DNA of 64,000 nt from Bradyrhizobium sp. CCGUVB1N3 (GTDB lineage Bacteria > Pseudomonadota > Alphaproteobacteria > Rhizobiales > Xanthobacteraceae): assembly GCF_024199925.1 (NCBI RefSeq), contig NZ_JANADR010000001.1:9303501-9367500 (forward strand), given 5' to 3'. Both the position numbers and the translations under genes were made by a program. The notes beneath the pieces were generated by a model. It saw nothing but the letters and a program-made list of their open reading frames with translations. It ran no database searches and was not told the DNA's origin. Positions 18,688 to 52,513 of this stretch are shown here, piece by piece. The first letter of the stretch is position 1; every line of letters starts with the position of its first letter.

Positions 18688-19617
18688 ATGCTGAAACAGC
18701 TCTTTGCGCCGCAACTTGTCATCCTCTATGTGCTTGCGGCATCAACGATTTACGTCCACTTCCGTGGCAAGCAGCGGCTGCGCTTTGCGCGCCAGCTTGG
18801 CGATCATTCGACCTATCTCGCACCCTACAACGTGCTGATGTATGCCGGCTCGGCCGTGCCGAACAAGCCGGTGATCTCGGTTGATCAGTTTCCGGAGCTG
18901 AAGCCGCTCAGCGAGAATTGGGAGACGATCCGCGACGAGGCGGTGCGCCTGTTCGATGAAGGCTTCATCCGCGCCGCGGCGAAGAACAATGACTGGGGCT
19001 TCTATTCGTTCTTCAAGAGCGGCTGGAAGCGCTTTTACCTGAAATGGTACGACGACTTCCTGCCCTCGGCGCGCACGCTGTGCCCGAAGACGGTGGAGCT
19101 CTTGAACTCGATTCCGTCGGTGCACGGCGCGATGTTTGCGATGCTGCCGCCCGGCGGCAAGCTGGGCGCGCACCGCGATCCCTTCGCCGGATCGCTGCGC
19201 TATCACCTCGGGCTCGTCACGCCGAACTCGAACAAGTGCCGGATTCTCGTCGACGGCGTCGAATGCGTCTGGCGCGACGGCGAAGCCTTCATGTTCGACG
19301 AGACCTTTATCCACAGCGCCGAGAACGCGACCGACGTCAACCGCATCATCCTGTTCTGCGACGTCGAGCGCCCGATGAAGTATGGCTTCATGACCGCGAT
19401 GAATCGCTGGGTCAGCCATAACATCGTCAAGGCGTCGGCGACCCAGAACGTCGACGGTGAGAGCGTCGGCGTGCTCAACAAGGTGTTCGGCAAGCTCTAC
19501 GAAATCCACCTTGCGAGCCGCAAGGTCAAGGAGTGGAACCGCAACGTCTACTACACGCTGAAATATTCGCTGACGGCGGTGATCCTCGGTCTTATCGTGA
19601 TGTCGGCGCTGCGGTGA
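18688..19617 (+). CDS. LpxO-like aspartyl/asparaginyl beta-hydroxylase-domain protein
   Basis: 309 aa from ATG 18688 (an in-frame TTG lies 15 bp upstream). One membrane span at each end anchors a 2-oxoglutarate/Fe(II) dioxygenase domain. The iron-binding HxD is in GAHRDPF near residue 162, the distal His in FIHSAEN near 208, and an Arg that could bind 2-oxoglutarate in NRIILF. The layout matches LpxO, which 2-hydroxylates an acyl chain of lipid A on the inner-membrane cytoplasmic face. Given the lipid A genes elsewhere in the window, lipid A is the likely substrate, but other hydroxylation targets are possible. Confidence 0.8.
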   Translation: MLKQLFAPQLVILYVLAASTIYVHFRGKQRLRFARQLGDHSTYLAPYNVLMYAGSAVPNKPVISVDQFPELKPLSENWETIRDEAVRLFDEGFIRAAAKNNDWGFYSFFKSGWKRFYLKWYDDFLPSARTLCPKTVELLNSIPSVHGAMFAMLPPGGKLGAHRDPFAGSLRYHLGLVTPNSNKCRILVDGVECVWRDGEAFMFDETFIHSAENATDVNRIILFCDVERPMKYGFMTAMNRWVSHNIVKASATQNVDGESVGVLNKVFGKLYEIHLASRKVKEWNRNVYYTLKYSLTAVILGLIVMSALR

Positions 19618-19649
19618 TTGCTGCGTCCGCGCCGAATTGGGAGTAGGCA

Positions 19650-20108
19650 ATGGCCCCGTTGCCGGCCGCCGACGCCGAGACAGAGCAGTTCTTCCGCCAC
19701 TGGCTGGAAACCTTCGCGGGCTATGTCCGCGAGGTCGACTACGCCTCGGCGAGGCCGCTCTTCCATCCGGATGTGCTTGCCTTCGGCACGCACAACGACG
19801 TCATCCCTGGTCTCGATCAATGGGTCGTGACGCAATGGGATAACGTCTGGCCCAAGACAACCGACTTCCGCTTCGTCCTCGAGCAGATCTCGATCCTGGC
19901 CTCGCCGGACGGCACGATGGTGACCGTGATCGTGCCGTGGACGAGCACGGGCTATCACGCCGATGGCAGTCCGTTCCCGCGCCCCGGCCGGGCGACGATG
20001 GTGTTCTCGGGGAATGCCGATGGCTGGCTGTGTGTCCACTCCCACATGTCGCTCAACCGCGGTGTCCCGCAGGTGAGCCATGCCAACCGACCGGTGAAGG
20101 CCTGGTAG
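19650..20108 (+). CDS. SnoaL/NTF2-fold protein, ketosteroid isomerase-like
   Basis: 152 aa with the pattern of NTF2-like small proteins: an N-terminal helix pair, then beta strands (VTVIVPWTSTGYHADG, GRATMVFSG, LCVHSHMSL). The fold serves many small enzymes and ligand binders. It starts 32 bp after the LpxO-like gene, in the same direction, and ends convergently with mosA 9 bp away. No specific reaction can be assigned. Confidence 0.65.
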   Translation: MAPLPAADAETEQFFRHWLETFAGYVREVDYASARPLFHPDVLAFGTHNDVIPGLDQWVVTQWDNVWPKTTDFRFVLEQISILASPDGTMVTVIVPWTSTGYHADGSPFPRPGRATMVFSGNADGWLCVHSHMSLNRGVPQVSHANRPVKAW

Positions 20109-20117
20109 ATCGAGTCC

Positions 20118-20942
20118 TCAGGCCGGCGCACCGGTCTGAATGATCGTCCCGACGTGCTGGCCGCGCAGGGCCGCCGTAAGCCGGCCCGGAACGAGGCCGT
20201 TCACGACCTGCACGCGCGCGATGTGCCGCGCGTTCGCCATGACCTCGATGAGCGCCGGATCGAACGGCAGCGTGCCCTTGAGCTTGCCAAGCTCGGCGAC
20301 GCCGGTCTCGCGCAGCAACTGCGCCTGCTTGCCGTCGGCGGCATTGGGATCCGCAGTGTAGACGCCGTCGACATCCTCCACGATCGTGAGGCCGGCGGCG
20401 CCCAGAGCGTCCGCGAGCAGGAAGGCGCCGGTGTCGGCCCGATGCAGCGGGATGCGCGAGGTCGGGAATTCATGATGGTGGTAGGGCGGAAACGCGCTGC
20501 CCACGACCGCGCGGGCTGCCGAGAGATGAATGGCGAGCTGGTGCGCGATGGTCGGGTGCTCGATGTAGGACACGCCCTCAGGCGCGAGCAGGCTCGCAAG
20601 GATATGGCCGTTCTGGCCGGCCTCGCTTGCGGCGAGCGGCGCGAGCGACCCGACGGGGAGGCCGAGGTCGAGGCCGACGCTGTAGAGATGGCGGGCGCGG
20701 ACGCCGGCGCCGGTCAGGATCAGCAGGCGATGCTCTGACAGCAGCGACCGCAGCTCGTCGACGAGGGGAAGGATCACTTCGTGACCGCGATCCATCAGGC
20801 GGCCGCCGATCTTGATCACCTGCACCCAGGGCAACAGCTTGATCGGGCTGCTGCCTGCGACGGGGCGGGTGAGATCGCCGTCGAGCAGTGTCTGACGTGC
20901 GAGCGGCGAGGCGACGTGCTTGATCTGGTTGGTGACAGTCAT
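20118..20942 (-). CDS. mosA: Molybdenum storage protein subunit alpha
   Basis: 274 aa. It closely resembles Azotobacter vinelandii MosA as I recall it: N terminus [16 protein letters not shown]-site segment [31 protein letters not shown], the His-rich loop [11 protein letters not shown] that binds polyoxomolybdate in MoSto, and [18 protein letters not shown]. Together with MosB it would form a cage that packs molybdate clusters using ATP in the cytoplasm, relevant to nitrogenase and other Mo enzymes. It starts 13 bp after mosB. Confidence 0.93.
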
Positions 20943-20955
20943 GGCGCTGGTCCCT

Positions 20956-21768
20956 TCAGCTCGCGGTGATGATGGTGCCGACATGCTCGCCCGCGAGTGC
21001 GCGGGTCAGGTTGCCGGGAACGAGGCCATTGACGATCTGCACCTGGTGGACATGGCGCGCCGAGGTGAGGAGGTCGAGCACGGGAAATTCCAGGATCGAG
21101 TCCTGCAACCCCTTGGCCTTCATCTCGGCCACCGAGATCTTTGGGATGAAGGTGGCGTTCTTCGCGGTCTTGGGATTCGCGGTGTAGAGGCCGTTCTCGT
21201 CCTTCACGTAGATCATCGCCTTGCAGCCGAACTGCTCGGCGACGAGGAAGCATCCGGCGTCGGTGCGATAGGGAGGGATCACGCCCTCGGCCGCGGGCCG
21301 CATCCACAGGCTATAGGGCGGCATGCCGCTGAAGATGACGGCGTTCACCTCGGCCAGGAACAGCGGCACGGACGAGAGCCCGGCGCTAGAGACCGCGGAA
21401 ATGCCGTGCTTGGCAAGAAGTTGCCCCAGCATCGCGGCGTTCTGATCGGCAACGGAGGCGCCGAGCTGCGAGAGCACGCCGGCCGGCAGGCGTAGCCCCG
21501 CCGCGATCGAATAGAGATGCCGCGCGCGCGTGCCTGCGCCGGTCCCGATCAGGAGCTTATGGGCCTTGCGCGCCGCGACGATCTCCTCGACCAGCGGATA
21601 GACCGCGGCGCGGCCACGATCGATGACGCTCTGTCCGCCGATCTTGATCACCGTGGCATCCGGCAGGATCCGGAAGTCCGGCGCTGCTTCCGCCGCGGCC
21701 TGAAGCTGTGGATCCGTGAGCGAGCGCTGCATGAGGAGCGCTTCGAGCTCCGTGGTCGTGTTCGACAT
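20956..21768 (-). CDS. mosB: Molybdenum storage protein subunit beta
   Basis: 270 aa from ATG 21768; an in-frame ATG 9 nt upstream sits too close to GAGAGG. Recognised by near-identity of its segments to A. vinelandii MosB as recalled: [71 protein letters not shown] and the C terminus [11 protein letters not shown]. It has an amino-acid-kinase/uridylate-kinase fold. It is first in the mosBA operon, with only about 75 bp between its start and the terminator of the upstream unit. No ModE-like site was seen there. Confidence 0.94.
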
Positions 21769-21842
21769 CCGAGACATCCTCTCGTTTGAGTGCATTCTCG
21801 ACACAGGCCTGCCGGCCGAGCCACCGGGATCAGCTTAATATG

Positions 21843-21872
21843 GAAAAGCCCCGGAATGCACTCCGGGGCTTT
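21843..21872 (-). terminator. Rho-independent terminator downstream of the FAH-family gene
   Basis: Read on the minus strand, AGCCCCGG AGTGCATT CCGGGGCT is followed by TTTTCC. It lies 25 bp past the FAH-family stop and separates that unit from mosBA, implying that mosB has its own promoter. Confidence 0.8.
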
Positions 21873-21896
21873 GCATTTCGGGTGCCGGACGCAGCT

Positions 21897-22598
21897 TTAC
21901 TCCGGCTGGCCGATCGAGACCTTCAGCGAGCCGACGCCGTCGACGCCGCATTCGAGCTTGTCGCCGGGCTGGAGCTGCGACACGCCGGCGGGCGTGCCGG
22001 TCAGGATGATGTCGCCGGCGGCGAGCTTTACCTGCTGCGAGAGCTGCCAGATGATCTCCGGCACGTTCCAGATCAGCTCGGTGAGGTCGCCCTTCTGCGC
22101 TTCCTTGCCGTTCACAGTAAGCCAGATCTTGCCCTTCGACGGGTGGCCGATCTTCGAAGCCGGCTGCACCGCGGAGCAGGGCGCCGAACCGTCGAACGAC
22201 TTGCCGATCTCCCAGGGACGCTCCTTCTTGCGCGAGGCGATCTGGAGGTCGCGGCGGGTCAAGTCGATGCCGACGGCGTAGCCGTAAACATGGTCGAGCG
22301 CCTTCTCGGCGGGGATGTTGAGGCCGCCGCTCTTCATCGCGACGATCAGCTCGACCTCGTGATGCAGGTCCTTGGTCAGCGGCGGATAAGGGATGGTGGC
22401 GCCATCGGGCACCAGCATGTCGGCGTGCTTGGCGAAAAAGAACGGCGGGGCACGCTCGTCATTGCCCATCTCGCGGATGTGCTCGAGATAGTTGCGGCCG
22501 ACACACCAGATGCGGCGGACCGGATAGCGGCCGGATTCGCCGACGACGGGAAGCGAAGCCTGAGGCGGAAGCGGGATGACGTAGGAGGCGGCGTTCAT
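21897..22598 (-). CDS. Fumarylacetoacetate hydrolase family protein, fumarylpyruvate hydrolase-like
   Basis: 233 aa. Family motifs include VGRNYLEHIREMG near the N terminus, metal-binding Glu residues in HHEVELIVAM, and IILTGTPAGVS near the C terminus. Length and GRNYxxHxxEMG favour the fumarylpyruvate or maleylpyruvate branch that ends the gentisate pathway. Other FAH enzymes (acylpyruvase, oxaloacetate decarboxylase) look similar. It follows the ABC exporter gene by 35 bp on the same strand. Confidence 0.82.
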   Translation of the reverse strand: MNAASYVIPLPPQASLPVVGESGRYPVRRIWCVGRNYLEHIREMGNDERAPPFFFAKHADMLVPDGATIPYPPLTKDLHHEVELIVAMKSGGLNIPAEKALDHVYGYAVGIDLTRRDLQIASRKKERPWEIGKSFDGSAPCSAVQPASKIGHPSKGKIWLTVNGKEAQKGDLTELIWNVPEIIWQLSQQVKLAAGDIILTGTPAGVSQLQPGDKLECGVDGVGSLKVSIGQPE

Positions 22599-22633
22599 GA
22601 AGCGGTCTCGCTGCTCTTGGGTGATAAGAATTC

Positions 22634-24442
22634 CTAAGCGGTTGCGCTGATCGGCGCCAGTCCCAGGGGGCTGGTGTCGTGATGCTGGAGACGGAAGAAC
22701 GAGGCGTAGCGGCCGGAGCGGCGCAGCAGCTCGTCGTGGCGTCCGTGCTCGACGATCTCGCCGCCCTCGACCACCAGGATTGCGTCCGCGTGCATGATGG
22801 TGTGCAGGCGGTGCGCGATCACGATCGTGGTGCGGTTCCGGCACAGATGCTCGATCGCCTCCTGCACCTGCTTCTCGGATTCGGAATCGAGCGCGGCGGT
22901 GGCCTCGTCCAGCAGGATGATCGGCGCGTTCTTGAGCAGTGCGCGCGCCACCGCGATGCGCTGGCGCTGACCGCCGGAGAGCTGCGTGCCGTGCTCGCCG
23001 ACCGGCGTGTCGTAGCCGAGCGGGAAGCTCATGATGAAGTCGTGGGCGCAGGCCGCCCTGGCGGCATCGATGATCTCATCCTCGGTGGCACCAAACCTGC
23101 CGAAGGCGATGTTGTTGCGGATGGTGTCGCGGAACAGATAGACGTCCTGGCCGACATAGGCGGTCTGTGCGCGCAGCGACTTGCGCGACACCGACGAGAT
23201 CGACTGGCCGTCGATCAGGATGTCGCCCTGCGTCACCTCGTAGAAGCGCAGCAGCAGCGCCAGCACGGTCGACTTGCCGCCGCCGGAGGGGCCGACCAGC
23301 GCGGTGACCTTGCCGGGCTCGGCAGTGAAGCTCATGCGGTTGAGCACGGTCTCGCCGGCGCGATAGGCGAAGCTGACGTCGTTGAGCTCGATCCGCGCGT
23401 CCGACAATTTCAGCGCCGGCTTGTCGTCGTCGGATTGCTCGCTCGCCGGGCTGTCGACGACTTCGAGCAGCATGCGCGCGCCGACGAGCTGGCTGTTGAG
23501 GTCGATGTTGAGCCGCGCCAGCCGCTTGGCCGGCTCGGTCGCCATCAGGAACGCGGTCATGAACGAGAAGAACTGGCCGGGTGTGGCGCCGAGCGCGACC
23601 ACGCTGTAGCCGCCATAGAGCAGGCAGCCGGCGACCGCGAAGCCGCCGAGCATCTCCATCAGCGGATTGGAGCGGTTGGCGACGCGCGCCATCTTGTTGG
23701 CGTTGCGCTCGACGACACTGATGTTCTCGTCGATGCGGCTTTGCATCGCATCTTCCAGCGTGAATGCCTTGACCGTGCGGATGCCTTGCAGCGATTCCTG
23801 CATGGTCTCCAGGATGTCCGCGGTGCCGGTGAACTGGTTGTAGGCGAGGCCCTTGATGCGCTTGACCAGCTTGCGCAGCACCAGCATCGCCGGCGGCACG
23901 GCGACGAGGCCGATGAACGACATCAGCGGATCCTGCCACACCATCACGCCGATCATGGCGAGCAGCATCATCAGGTCGCGCCCGACGGCATTGACCAGCA
24001 TGTTGAGGACGTCGGTGATGGATTTGGCGCCGGCGGTCAGCCGCGCCAAGAACTCCGAGGAGTGCCGCTCGGAGAAGAAGCCGATGCTCTCGCGCATCAG
24101 CTTGGCGAAGAGTTGCCGCTGGTTGGTGGCGAGGATGGCGTTGCTGATCTTGGTCAGGATCACCATGTGGCCGTAGGTCGAAACGCCCTTGATGAACAAG
24201 AGGATCACCGTCACGCCGGACAGCATCGCGATGCCCGGGACGTTCTTGTCGACATAGGCCTGGTTGATGACCTGGCCGAGAACGTAAGTCGCGGCCGCGG
24301 TCGCGCCGGCGGCCGTTGCCATCAGCGCGAAGGCGACCAAATAGCGCCGCCAATAGGTAATCCCCTGTTCCATGACGAGGCGGCGAATCAGGATCGCTGC
24401 CGCATAGGGATCGTCGGTGATTTTCTTTGGAAACTGGGCCAT
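22634..24442 (-). CDS. MsbA-like ABC exporter (fused permease and ATPase)
   Basis: 602 aa from ATG 24442. About six membrane spans occupy residues 1-320. The ATPase domain follows with Walker A GPSGGGKSTVLALL, signature LSGGQRQRIAVARALLKNAP, Walker B IILLDEATAALD and H-loop IAHRLHT. The half-transporter layout matches lipid A/lipid flippases of the MsbA type, but drug or peptide exporters share it. No partner half-transporter is adjacent, so a homodimer is likely. Its closeness to the LPS region fits lipid export only loosely. Confidence 0.85.
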   Translation of the reverse strand: MAQFPKKITDDPYAAAILIRRLVMEQGITYWRRYLVAFALMATAAGATAAATYVLGQVINQAYVDKNVPGIAMLSGVTVILLFIKGVSTYGHMVILTKISNAILATNQRQLFAKLMRESIGFFSERHSSEFLARLTAGAKSITDVLNMLVNAVGRDLMMLLAMIGVMVWQDPLMSFIGLVAVPPAMLVLRKLVKRIKGLAYNQFTGTADILETMQESLQGIRTVKAFTLEDAMQSRIDENISVVERNANKMARVANRSNPLMEMLGGFAVAGCLLYGGYSVVALGATPGQFFSFMTAFLMATEPAKRLARLNIDLNSQLVGARMLLEVVDSPASEQSDDDKPALKLSDARIELNDVSFAYRAGETVLNRMSFTAEPGKVTALVGPSGGGKSTVLALLLRFYEVTQGDILIDGQSISSVSRKSLRAQTAYVGQDVYLFRDTIRNNIAFGRFGATEDEIIDAARAACAHDFIMSFPLGYDTPVGEHGTQLSGGQRQRIAVARALLKNAPIILLDEATAALDSESEKQVQEAIEHLCRNRTTIVIAHRLHTIMHADAILVVEGGEIVEHGRHDELLRRSGRYASFFRLQHHDTSPLGLAPISATA

Positions 24443-46425: not shown

Positions 46426-48735
46426 ATGGCTGCTCCCATCAAATTCGGCGTTGGCCAAAGCGTGCTGCGCAAGGAGGATGACGTACTGATCCGCGGCAAG
46501 GGCCGCTATACCGACGACTATGCGCCCCATGCGGCCTTGCGCTGCCTGATGCTGCGTTCGCCGCACGCGCATGCCAAATATACGATCGATGTGAGCCGCG
46601 CCCGCGCGCTGCCCGGCGTCGCGCTGATCCTGACCGCCGACGACGTTGGGGATCTCGGCAATCTGCCGTGCCTGTTCAACCTCGAAACCGATCCGTTCAC
46701 CGGCCCGCCTTACCCGATCCTCGCCAAGGACGAGGTCCGCCATGTCGGCGATTCCATCGCCTTCGTCGTCGCCGAGACGATCGACCAGGCCCGTGACGCG
46801 ATCGAGGCGATCGAGGTCAAGTGGAGCCCGCTGCCGGCCGTGACCGGCGTCGTCAATGCCGTGAAGAAGGGCGCGCCGCAGGTCTGGGCGGACAAGCCCG
46901 GCAACGTGCTGTTCGACGTCTCGATCGGCGACAAGGCCGCAACCGAAGCCGTCTTTGCGAAAGCACATGCGGTCGCCGAAATCTCCATCGTCAATCCGCG
47001 CGTGGTCGCGAGCTTCATGGAGACGCGTGCGGCTGTTTGCGAATACGACGCCAAGCGCGACCATCTGACGCTGACGGTCGGCAGCCAGGGCAGCCACCGC
47101 CTGCGCGACATCCTCTGCCAGAACGTGCTCAATATCCCGACCGACAAGATGCGGGTGATCTGCCCCGACGTCGGCGGCGGCTTCGGCACAAAGCTGTTTC
47201 CGTATCGCGAATACGCGTTGATGGCAGTGGCCGCGCGAAAGCTGAAGAAGGCGGTGAAATGGGCGGCCGACCGCTCCGAACATTTCATGGGCGATGCGCA
47301 GGGCCGCGACAACGTCACCACCGCAAAGATGGCGCTCGCCGAGGACGGCAAGTTCCTCGCGATGGATTGCGACCTGATGGGCGACATGGGCGCGTATCTG
47401 TCGACCTTCGGGCCCTACATCCCGCATGGCGGCGCCGGCATGCTGCCGGGCCTCTACGACATCCAGGCCTTCCACTGCCGGGTGCGCACCATCTTCACCA
47501 ACAGCGTGCCGGTCGATGCCTATCGCGGAGCGGGCCGGCCCGAGGCTGCCTATGTCATCGAGCGTCTCGTCGATGCCTGCGCGCGCAAGCTCGACATGAC
47601 GCCCGACACCATCCGTCGCAAGAATTTTATCCAGCCGAAGGCGCTGCCCTACAAGACGGCCACGGGCAAGGTCTACGACTCCGGCGACTTCGCCGCGCAC
47701 CTGAAGCGCGCGATGGAGATCGCAAACTGGAAGGAGTTCGGAAAGCGCGCCAAGGCGGCCAAGAAGCAGGGCCTGGTCCGCGGCATTGGCTTGGCGAGCT
47801 ATGTCGAGATCTGCGGCGTGATGGGAGAAGAGACCGCCAACGTCAGGCTCGATCCCAACGGCGACGTCACCGTCCTGATCGGCACGCAGTCGAGCGGGCA
47901 GGGCCACCAGACGGCTTATGCCCAGATCGTTGCCGAGCAGTTCGGCCTGCCGCCGGAGCGTGTGCATATCCGCCAGGGCGACACCGACGAGATCGCGACG
48001 GGCTTAGGCACCGGCGGCTCGGCCTCGATCCCCACCGGCGGCGTCTGCGTGGAGCGTGCCACGGGCGAGCTTGGCAAGAAGCTGAAGGAGGTCGCTGCGC
48101 AGGCGCTGGAGGCCAGCGCCGGCGACCTCGAGATTTCGGCCGGCGCAATCCGCATCGCCGGCACCGACCGCACGATCTCCTTTGCCGATCTCGCCAAGCG
48201 CCCCGGCGCCGACCCGTCGAAGATGAACGGCAGTGCGACTTTTGCCAGCGCCGACGGCACCTATCCAAACGGGACGCATCTGGCGGAAGTCGAGATCGAT
48301 CCAGCCACCGGCGTGATCAAGATCGTCAACTACGTGATCGTCGACGATTTCGGCAAGACGCTCAATCCGCTGCTGCTCGCCGGCCAGGTGCATGGCGGCG
48401 CCATGCAGGGCATCGGTCAGGCGCTGATGGAGCAGGTGGTCTATGGCGCGGGTGACGGCCAGCTCGTCACCGGCACCTATATGGACTACGCGCTGCCGCG
48501 CGCGGCCGATGGTCCGGCCTTCGTGTTCGAGACCCACAACGTTCCCTGCAAGACCAATCCGCTTGGCGTGAAGGGGGCGGGCGAGGCCGGCGCGATCGGC
48601 TCGTGCCCAGCCATCGTCAACGCCATCGTCGAGGGCCTCTGGCGCGAATACAAGATCGACCACATCGACATGCCGGCAACGCCGGAGCGGGTGTGGATCG
48701 CGATCAACGAGCACCACCGCCGTCACAGCCTCTGA
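46426..48735 (+). CDS. Xanthine dehydrogenase-family molybdopterin-binding (CoxL-like) subunit
   Basis: 769 aa. The large Mo-cofactor subunit of a molybdenum hydroxylase, with RKEDDVLIRGKGRYTDDY at the start, GGGFGTK, the form II motif DAYRGAGRPEA (form I CO dehydrogenase has AYRCSFR), GQGHQTAYAQIVAEQFG and the catalytic Glu in GVKGAGEAGAIG near the C terminus. It would hydroxylate an aldehyde or N-heterocycle. The medium FAD and small 2Fe-2S subunits are not adjacent, so it is an orphan that must borrow partners from elsewhere. Confidence 0.9.
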   Translation: MAAPIKFGVGQSVLRKEDDVLIRGKGRYTDDYAPHAALRCLMLRSPHAHAKYTIDVSRARALPGVALILTADDVGDLGNLPCLFNLETDPFTGPPYPILAKDEVRHVGDSIAFVVAETIDQARDAIEAIEVKWSPLPAVTGVVNAVKKGAPQVWADKPGNVLFDVSIGDKAATEAVFAKAHAVAEISIVNPRVVASFMETRAAVCEYDAKRDHLTLTVGSQGSHRLRDILCQNVLNIPTDKMRVICPDVGGGFGTKLFPYREYALMAVAARKLKKAVKWAADRSEHFMGDAQGRDNVTTAKMALAEDGKFLAMDCDLMGDMGAYLSTFGPYIPHGGAGMLPGLYDIQAFHCRVRTIFTNSVPVDAYRGAGRPEAAYVIERLVDACARKLDMTPDTIRRKNFIQPKALPYKTATGKVYDSGDFAAHLKRAMEIANWKEFGKRAKAAKKQGLVRGIGLASYVEICGVMGEETANVRLDPNGDVTVLIGTQSSGQGHQTAYAQIVAEQFGLPPERVHIRQGDTDEIATGLGTGGSASIPTGGVCVERATGELGKKLKEVAAQALEASAGDLEISAGAIRIAGTDRTISFADLAKRPGADPSKMNGSATFASADGTYPNGTHLAEVEIDPATGVIKIVNYVIVDDFGKTLNPLLLAGQVHGGAMQGIGQALMEQVVYGAGDGQLVTGTYMDYALPRAADGPAFVFETHNVPCKTNPLGVKGAGEAGAIGSCPAIVNAIVEGLWREYKIDHIDMPATPERVWIAINEHHRRHSL

Positions 48736-51478: not shown

Positions 51479-51823
51479 TCAATTGAGCCAATAGGTGACT
51501 GCGGCGGCGATGAAGGCTGCACTGAGGTAATTCCTGGCGAGTTTGTCGTATCGGGTGGCGATGCGACGCCAGTCTTTGAGTCTGCACCACATACGTTCGA
51601 CGCGGTTTCGCTGCTTGTAAGCGCGTTTGTCGTAAGGAATAGGGCTGCGCCTTGATGTGGTCGAGGGGATGACCGGTTCAGCTTTGCGGCCCTTGATCAG
51701 GTGGCGCAGGTGATCGGCGTCGTATCCGCGGTCGGCGATCAGGCGGCGGAAGGGACCGATAGCGCGGACCAGATCGGCGGCAACGGTGATGTCGTTGACA
51801 TTGCCGGCGGTGAGCAAAAGCAC
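51479..51823 (-). CDS. IS5-family transposase, C-terminal frame (orfB)
   Basis: Carries the second Asp (LIADRGYDAD) and Glu (NRVERMWCRLKDWRR) of the DDE catalytic triad. The true frame opens upstream of the listed ATG, since in-phase codons back to about 51916 encode DFAQGIGRSRGGRTTKLHGL. It is probably made only as a fusion with orfA by -1 frameshifting. The distance from the orfA start to this stop (761 nt) fits a single -1 shift to give 253 aa. The stop codon lies inside the left inverted repeat. Confidence 0.85.
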   Translation of the reverse strand: MLLLTAGNVNDITVAADLVRAIGPFRRLIADRGYDADHLRHLIKGRKAEPVIPSTTSRRSPIPYDKRAYKQRNRVERMWCRLKDWRRIATRYDKLARNYLSAAFIAAAVTYWLN

Positions 51824-51846
51824 CCGAGGCCGTCCTTTGGCGTCGG

Positions 51847-52239
51847 TCAGGCCGTGGAGCTTCGTCGTGCGCCCGCCGCGCGAGCGGCCGATACCTTGCG
51901 CGAAGTCCCCCCTTTTGCGCCAGCGGCGGAGCGGTGGGCTTTGACGTGGGTGCTGTCGATGGCGACGGTGCCGAAGATGCCGCTATGACCGGTCAGAGCC
52001 TTGAAGATGTCGTGCCAAATCCCCTGACGGCTCCAGCGATTATAGCGATTGTAGATCGTCGTGTAGGGACCATACCCCGCCGGGCAATCGCGCCAGCGAC
52101 CGCCCGAACGCAGCATGTAGACGATCCCGCTGATCACCCGGCGATCGTCGACGCGACGCGCTCCACGCCGACCACGGGGCAACAACGGCTCGATCCGCCG
52201 CCATTCCGCATCGTTCAAAAGGTAGAGCGCCTTCGCCAT
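51847..52239 (-). CDS. IS5-family transposase, N-terminal frame (orfA)
   Basis: 130 aa from ATG 52239. It contains the DUF4096-type DNA-binding N terminus (LLNDAEWRRIEPLLP, VISGIVYMLRSGGRWRDCP) and the first catalytic Asp (FGTVAIDSTHVKAHR). At 51907-51916, read as AAAAGGGGGG on this strand, is a slippery run where ribosomes can enter the orfB frame. Confidence 0.88.
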   Translation of the reverse strand: MAKALYLLNDAEWRRIEPLLPRGRRGARRVDDRRVISGIVYMLRSGGRWRDCPAGYGPYTTIYNRYNRWSRQGIWHDIFKALTGHSGIFGTVAIDSTHVKAHRSAAGAKGGTSRKVSAARAAGARRSSTA

Positions 52240-52513
52240 CCCGGCCTCCAAATCATCTTCGGAGACCTTGAATCACAAACCGGGCTCAGCCGGAATCCTT
52301 ATTGAGTACAGACCTTAGGCGGGAAGGCAGGGACGCGGGGGCTCGCACGGGCCTTCGCCATCAGGGCACGATTAACCCTGACTCGATTGCACGAGCGGCC
52401 GGGGCCGGATTCGGCGTGTAGACTGGCGTCATTTGTGACTGAGGTCACAGAGCGAAATTTGCTTTTCGTGACGCTGTATCTAGTCTGCGAGATTGCATTC
52501 CTGGGGGACTGCA

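Follow-up and report, generated by a model that had tools for sequence, protein, structure and literature searches.

The molybdenum storage protein (MoSto), encoded by mosA and mosB, is the best-studied polyoxometalate-forming storage protein. Experimental work on it comes mainly from Azotobacter. In A. vinelandii, MoSto stores molybdenum and protects against tungsten, and its loss makes the organism tungsten-sensitive; the in vivo role was studied there in a diazotroph (PMC6448029, available part of the text). The octamolybdate cluster is covalently bound by His156 and Glu129 of A. vinelandii MoSto (PMC4504029, available part). In a literature search on MoSto outside Azotobacter, which reached few subscription papers, mosAB in Bradyrhizobium was not found among the matches listed. 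One text with both terms, MoSto and Bradyrhizobium, appeared among those matches, an editorial (PMC7240030).

The mosB-mosA pair analyzed here lies in a 64,000-nucleotide stretch of DNA (the window), C1:9303501-9367500 of Bradyrhizobium sp. CCGUVB1N3, whose 10.44-Mb genome is assembled in three contigs. The features of the locus are as follows.

19650..20108, plus strand: flanking SnoaL-like protein gene, convergent with mosA (PF13474)
20109..21839, no strand: stretch with mosAB that is absent in mos-less relatives; right edge 21840-21898 depending on the relative
20118..20942, minus strand: mosA, MoSto alpha subunit, 274 aa; E 1.3e-138 to 2ogx_A, 79% identity to A. vinelandii
20472..20480, minus strand: His-His-His codons of mosA, aligned with A. 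vinelandii alpha His156-158; role of His156 from the available part of PMC4504029
20559..20561, minus strand: Glu codon of mosA, aligned with A. vinelandii alpha Glu129, covalent octamolybdate ligand according to the same part of PMC4504029
20951..20956, minus strand: Shine-Dalgarno-like AAGGGA of mosA, found by eye, touching the mosB stop codon
20956..21768, minus strand: mosB, MoSto beta subunit, 270 aa; E 3.3e-153 to 2ogx_B, 88% identity to A. vinelandii
21778..21783, minus strand: Shine-Dalgarno-like GAGAGG of mosB, found by eye
21845..21873, no strand: hairpin resembling a terminator, lying between mosB and the FAH-family gene; folding energy -21.1 kcal/mol
21897..22844, minus strand: flanking fumarylacetoacetate-hydrolase (FAH) family ORF, start codon tentative (PF01557)

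Both genes start where their A. vinelandii counterparts do. For mosB this is ATG 21768, with GAGAGG 9 nt upstream (an in-frame GTG at 21804 is less likely); for mosA it is ATG 20942, in a reading frame open from ATG 20984. The mosB stop and ATG 20942 are separated by 13 nt. The products are tandem homologous AA-kinase subunits, each nearest to its own A. vinelandii counterpart, as expected for members of the MoSto family. In addition to the two covalent ligands we checked alpha Lys45, Gln136, His140, His157 and His158, which we picked on the basis of MoSto structures, Lys45 being the ATP-site lysine. Window MosA is intact at all seven positions (K45, E129, Q136, H140, H156, H157 and H158), and the lysine is present in both subunits. 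Among 103 distinct canonical MosA sequences, drawn from 122 rows of which some are the same genome twice, K45, Q136, H140 and H158 were each found in 103, H156 and H157 in 102, and E129 in 101. Four sequences depart from this pattern: L081 from Azotobacter beijerinckii, L100 and L128 from Azospirillum, and L153 from Rhodopseudomonas; all lie outside Bradyrhizobium.

A preliminary description of this DNA had named the two subunits and their operon, a His-rich loop in the alpha subunit and intact ATP-site motifs. Each of these assignments is borne out: the ORFs lie where they were placed, the loop is not a chance pattern (A. vinelandii His156-158 correspond to window 20480-20472), and Lys45 is kept in both subunits. 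The description had proposed an alignment with A. vinelandii MosA and MosB as a check and named lost cluster ligands or closer kinship to uridylate kinases as grounds for giving up the assignment; on both counts the outcome was for MoSto. Judged by its sequence, 20118-21768 on the minus strand is a genuine, intact MoSto operon, of a known family and in an ordinary placement.

A MosB relative at E <= 1e-20 was found in 64 of 265 Bradyrhizobium genomes. Canonical mosB is present in 57 of the 265, the window's included, and carriers with an unbroken mosB frame have a MosB 83-96% identical to that of the window. In a class-wide sample of 385 genomes, the window genome gave the single match at E <= 1e-45. 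We examined 80 of 219 named canonical mosB loci. They include loci from Azotobacter, Azomonas, Methylomonas, Nitrobacter, Candidatus Nitrotoga, Rhodoblastus, Magnetospirillum, Azospirillum, Zoogloea, Azoarcus and Methylocystis, along with many Bradyrhizobium. The remark that MoSto is known mainly from Azotobacter is correct for the experiments found but not for genes, given the 57 Bradyrhizobium carriers and the many other genera.

Our main reading, to which we assign a probability of roughly 70%, is that mosB-mosA encodes a working MoSto, and that in Bradyrhizobium it is an optional general molybdenum reserve and tungsten guard, not a dedicated nitrogenase accessory, with basal expression probable and the two genes forming a compact cassette subject to gain and loss. 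The predicted (alpha beta)3 cage would use ATP to take in molybdate or tungstate, which would be condensed to polyoxometalate clusters and held by alpha-subunit residues, and it would release molybdenum on need. Such a reserve would supply Moco enzymes and also, in nif genomes such as this one, FeMo-co.

The closest competitor, which we consider unlikely, is that MoSto in Bradyrhizobium is a nitrogenase accessory as in Azotobacter, buffering molybdenum for FeMo-co, and that carriers lacking nif are recent losers of nif in which mosAB has not yet decayed. Several observations agree with it. The window genome has nifD and two copies of nifH; MoSto gives molybdenum to FeMo-co synthesis in vitro (PMC6448029, available part), and a 2026 survey places mosAB among the nitrogen fixation machinery (PMC12903952, available part). 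Nif genes also lie near mosAB in 4 of the 80 named loci (L084, L085, L097 and L142). The distribution of nif across the genus speaks against it. NifD was detected in 164 of 265 Bradyrhizobium genomes, and carriers of canonical mosB show no nif excess: 37 carriers are nifD-positive and 20 nifD-negative, compared with 127 and 81 among non-carriers (Fisher p 0.65). The odds ratio is 1.18 (95% interval 0.64-2.17, which allows a value of about 2, with genome kinship ignored), or 1.28 (0.69-2.36) if G101 is counted as nif-plus. Of the 20 nifD-less carriers, G101, whose assembly is fragmented, is alone in having a nifH that passes the cut-off; the other 19 have neither nifD nor such a nifH, and among them are the single-contig genomes G022, G142 and G151. 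Nor are the genes neighbors where both occur: in the 17 canonical carriers with both listed on one contig, mosB and nifD are 0.36-4.75 Mb apart and never closer (16 distances were computed and the 0.36 Mb of G125 was read off the place lists; the one-contig genome G260 was left out, its nifD place not being listed).

Pairwise Nei-Gojobori dN/dS values were obtained for 13 of the 19 nif-minus and 18 of the 37 nif-plus carriers. The medians for mosB were 0.099 and 0.101, and those for mosA 0.123 and 0.134, respectively. At about 0.1, these values indicate that mosAB in nif-minus carriers is under purifying selection similar to that in nif-plus carriers, which also counts against the accessory reading; they may partly mirror a nif-bearing past, since the loss of nif may be recent in part of the carriers. 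Neither linkage nor co-occurrence of mosAB with nif was found within Bradyrhizobium in this comparison of 265 genomes, in which kinship was ignored. The new finding is that mosAB is uncoupled from nitrogenase in Bradyrhizobium. Relatives unable to fix nitrogen keep mosAB, and it therefore seems that other molybdenum enzymes draw on the store as well. The earlier hunch that the purpose of mosAB here is not obvious gains support from this independence across the genus.

The preliminary description had placed the operon outside a nif cluster, and it does lie away from nif and mod: nifD is at C1:7966188, 1.36 Mb from mosAB, and the sole ModC match at E <= 1e-60 is at C1:5788500, about 3.5 Mb away, with ModA and ModB adjoining. 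The genome is, however, a nif genome. A ModE-type DNA-binding domain at C1:522983 scored just under the cut-off (92.4 of 98.5 bits). Standing alone, which had been put forward as special, is not: within 10 kb of A. vinelandii mosAB (L079) no nif, ModE-like, modABC or tupAB gene was found either.

A Mo-hydroxylase domain was detected in 265 of 265 Bradyrhizobium genomes, with up to 8 candidates scored in each. In the window genome the domain MoCoBD_2 matched 25 stretches, which by our grouping represent about 19 gene places, and an internal stop interrupts one of these; because of this number, the demand for molybdenum beyond nitrogenase is probably large. The orphan Mo-hydroxylase subunit mentioned earlier as lying 25 kb from mosAB exists, as a 769-aa large subunit of the CoxL/glyceraldehyde-dehydrogenase type at window 46426-48735, but with about 19 such places in the genome it is not a meaningful neighbor. 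By eye, genes for its small and medium subunits were not seen among the called neighbors. Transposase-like fragments (IS5-type look, by eye) adjoin caspase-like repeat genes at window 51479-52251.

Neighborhoods were compared for 28 canonical Bradyrhizobium loci, up to 20 kb each, from the 56 carriers other than the window's. The window's neighbors recur in 16 loci (setting I), seven loci are in setting II, three in setting III and two elsewhere. In setting I, 15 of the 16 other loci have mosAB between an Asp/Asn-hydroxylase gene and SnoaL; L040 is like the window. The window position may reflect a separate insertion or a local rearrangement. We also compared nine mos-less loci, from G188, G060, G131, G072, G016, G023, G014, G088 and G025. 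In these relatives the end of SnoaL and the FAH-family terminator or gene end are 10-161 bp apart, compared with about 1.73 kb, with mosAB, in the window. Relative to such empty sites the window's mosAB appears as a clean 1.7-kb insert, for which gain here and loss in the relatives are both possible; the cassette may have been gained by transfer. A hairpin similar to the one at 21845..21873 directly follows SnoaL in mos-less L167, L171 and L176; the window's hairpin was not called by a scan of 19600-22700. Loss of mosAB has also occurred, because the mos-less genome G014 (L173) retains remnants of the leader and opening codons of mosB next to SnoaL, at the second (hydroxylase-SnoaL) site. In 2 of the 57 carriers, G011 and G076 (L057 and L058), mosB is split between two frames while mosA is whole. 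These split genes, together with the relic of the mosB start in G014, argue that mosAB is dispensable.

A second alternative, to which we give slightly less credit than to the nitrogenase accessory, is that the cassette mainly serves detoxification and sorting of tungstate and molybdate, coupled to a Tup-type tungstate importer. The tungsten sensitivity of A. vinelandii on loss of MoSto, as given in the available part of PMC6448029, would suit such a role. Six of the 28 canonical loci have TupB-TupA-like genes next to mosAB: in L045 and L072 these lie upstream and point the same way, and in L046, L049, L050 and L059 they are divergent. They are not found beside the window's mosAB. The L045 pair falls below the NCBI equivalog cut-offs (TupA 239 of 400, TupB 142 of 320), so its substrate is putative. 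TupA-like proteins occur in 243 of the 265 genomes, and because of this a link of mosAB with any TupA is uninformative at the genome level. With TupA at least 78% identical to that of L045, mosAB was present in 10 of 15 genomes among the matches listed, compared with 47 of 250 others (p 1.3e-4), the 78% cut having been picked after viewing the match list; 9 of those 10 have TupA and mosAB on one contig within about 2 kb, again among the matches listed. No ATPase gene was seen beside the TupB-TupA-like genes among the genes called in the six loci.

Marker genes near the 80 named loci were scored by tblastn, a hit requiring E <= 1e-12 and coverage of half the marker or more; contig ends truncate some of the loci. 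Apart from the nif genes given above, ModE-like genes were near mosAB in five loci (L088, L096, L109, L115 and L124), modABC in three (L096, L127 and L158) and tupAB in four (L112, L116, L117 and L139). PhnC-type ABC ATPases near mosAB, at about 30% identity in most loci, were set aside as generic ABC matches. L088 and L124, among the loci with a ModE-like gene, are a Candidatus Nitrotoga and a Nitrobacter assembly. Nitrite oxidisers have a large molybdenum need for nitrite oxidoreductase.

A third alternative, that the pair encodes uridylate or other amino-acid kinases instead of a storage protein, as their PF00696 fold, weak UMP kinase matches and the name 'uridine kinase' on relatives in some database entries might suggest, is refuted at the sequence level and deserves practically no credence: the best uridylate-kinase matches (E 7.4e-5 for MosA and 1.7e-5 for MosB) are far weaker than the 1e-138 and 1e-153 to MoSto subunits, the best NCBI UMP-kinase model gives 51.6 bits for MosA and 55.8 for MosB where its cut-off is 158.05, and seven of seven checked alpha residues are retained.

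We looked for regulatory signals around the operon. No Moco riboswitch or other Rfam family scored above the gathering score in the whole window. A sigma-70 scan of 19600-22700 gave no sites, with 0.3 expected. The earlier statement that there is no recognisable ModE site agrees with the count of zero ModE-type palindromes in the window, a weak test in that the pattern was unvalidated and used without a positive control, with 0.29 matches expected by chance. By eye, 43 upstream regions of mosB are alike only around the ribosome-binding site. A dyad upstream of mosB (CTTGTTGCCATGG...GCAGCAAGA) was considered as a mos operator in many setting-I genomes and rejected. In mos-less L166, L167, L173 and L174 its core lies about 46 bp upstream of SnoaL, and in the window it was found near neither SnoaL nor mosB; we therefore assign the dyad to the SnoaL gene. 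The literature disagrees on basal MoSto expression. In A. vinelandii MoSto levels were similar at all molybdenum concentrations tested, and the same paper cites a report of no MoSto in Mo-free medium (PMC6448029, available part); in one nitrogenase mutant the mosAB transcripts were 1.7-fold lower (PMC10581106, available part).

A divergent MosAB-like pair was found in 8 of the 265 Bradyrhizobium genomes (L060-L067) and is absent from the window's genome; G021 holds both kinds. It consists of two AA-kinase genes in tandem, whose products share 52-55% (first gene) and 46-48% (second gene) identity with window MosB. In all eight genomes the pair is directly preceded by a WD40-repeat gene, whose product has a signal peptide as judged by eye. 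ModABC lies upstream of the WD40 gene in seven; L063 has a ModC-like gene alone. L065 has a frame change that breaks up the second gene. A midpoint-rooted FastTree with 89 sequences places the first gene as sister to MosB (support 0.993) and puts the second in a lineage of its own. All 15 sequences of the pair that were read are without His at alpha 140, 156, 157 and 158 and keep Lys45, and the first gene retains Glu129 and Gln136. In databases the proteins are named molybdenum storage protein or uridylate kinase. Our literature search for an operon joining MoSto with WD40 gave none among the matches listed. From these sequences the pair might form a cage or bind metal. A wider picture, which we offer tentatively and would sooner doubt than accept, is that Bradyrhizobium has two molybdenum stores, neither made for nitrogenase: a mobile canonical MoSto for Moco enzymes even in non-fixers, and a MosA'B' cage without covalent ligands, behind a secreted WD40 propeller and usually ModABC, which would use another chemistry to hold imported metal oxyanions or pass them on.

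Non-fixers with an intact, selected mosAB would change the view of mosAB as part of the nitrogen fixation machinery that is taken in the available part of PMC12903952. The nif-minus carriers would be clean hosts for asking what MoSto does without nitrogenase, and the histidine-free pair is a natural variant in which to test which residues build clusters. Two things seem to us worth following, the independence from nif within Bradyrhizobium and the pair that lacks the alpha-type histidines.

Compared with known systems, the window's operon resembles A. vinelandii MosA/MosB (PDB 2OGX, 4F6T) in both subunits, the order mosB-mosA and the seven alpha residues, and both loci are isolated from nif, mod and tup genes. 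It differs in genus and in its site between SnoaL and FAH-family genes, and Bradyrhizobium carriers of mosAB are often without nitrogenase. The other canonical mosAB of Bradyrhizobium share the cassette with the window and have a similar leader around the ribosome-binding site, whereas the window-type insertion is between SnoaL and FAH and those of settings II and III are at other places. The divergent pair is like the window in its tandem AA-kinase genes and ATP-site lysine, and unlike it in lacking the alpha-type histidines and lying behind a WD40 gene.
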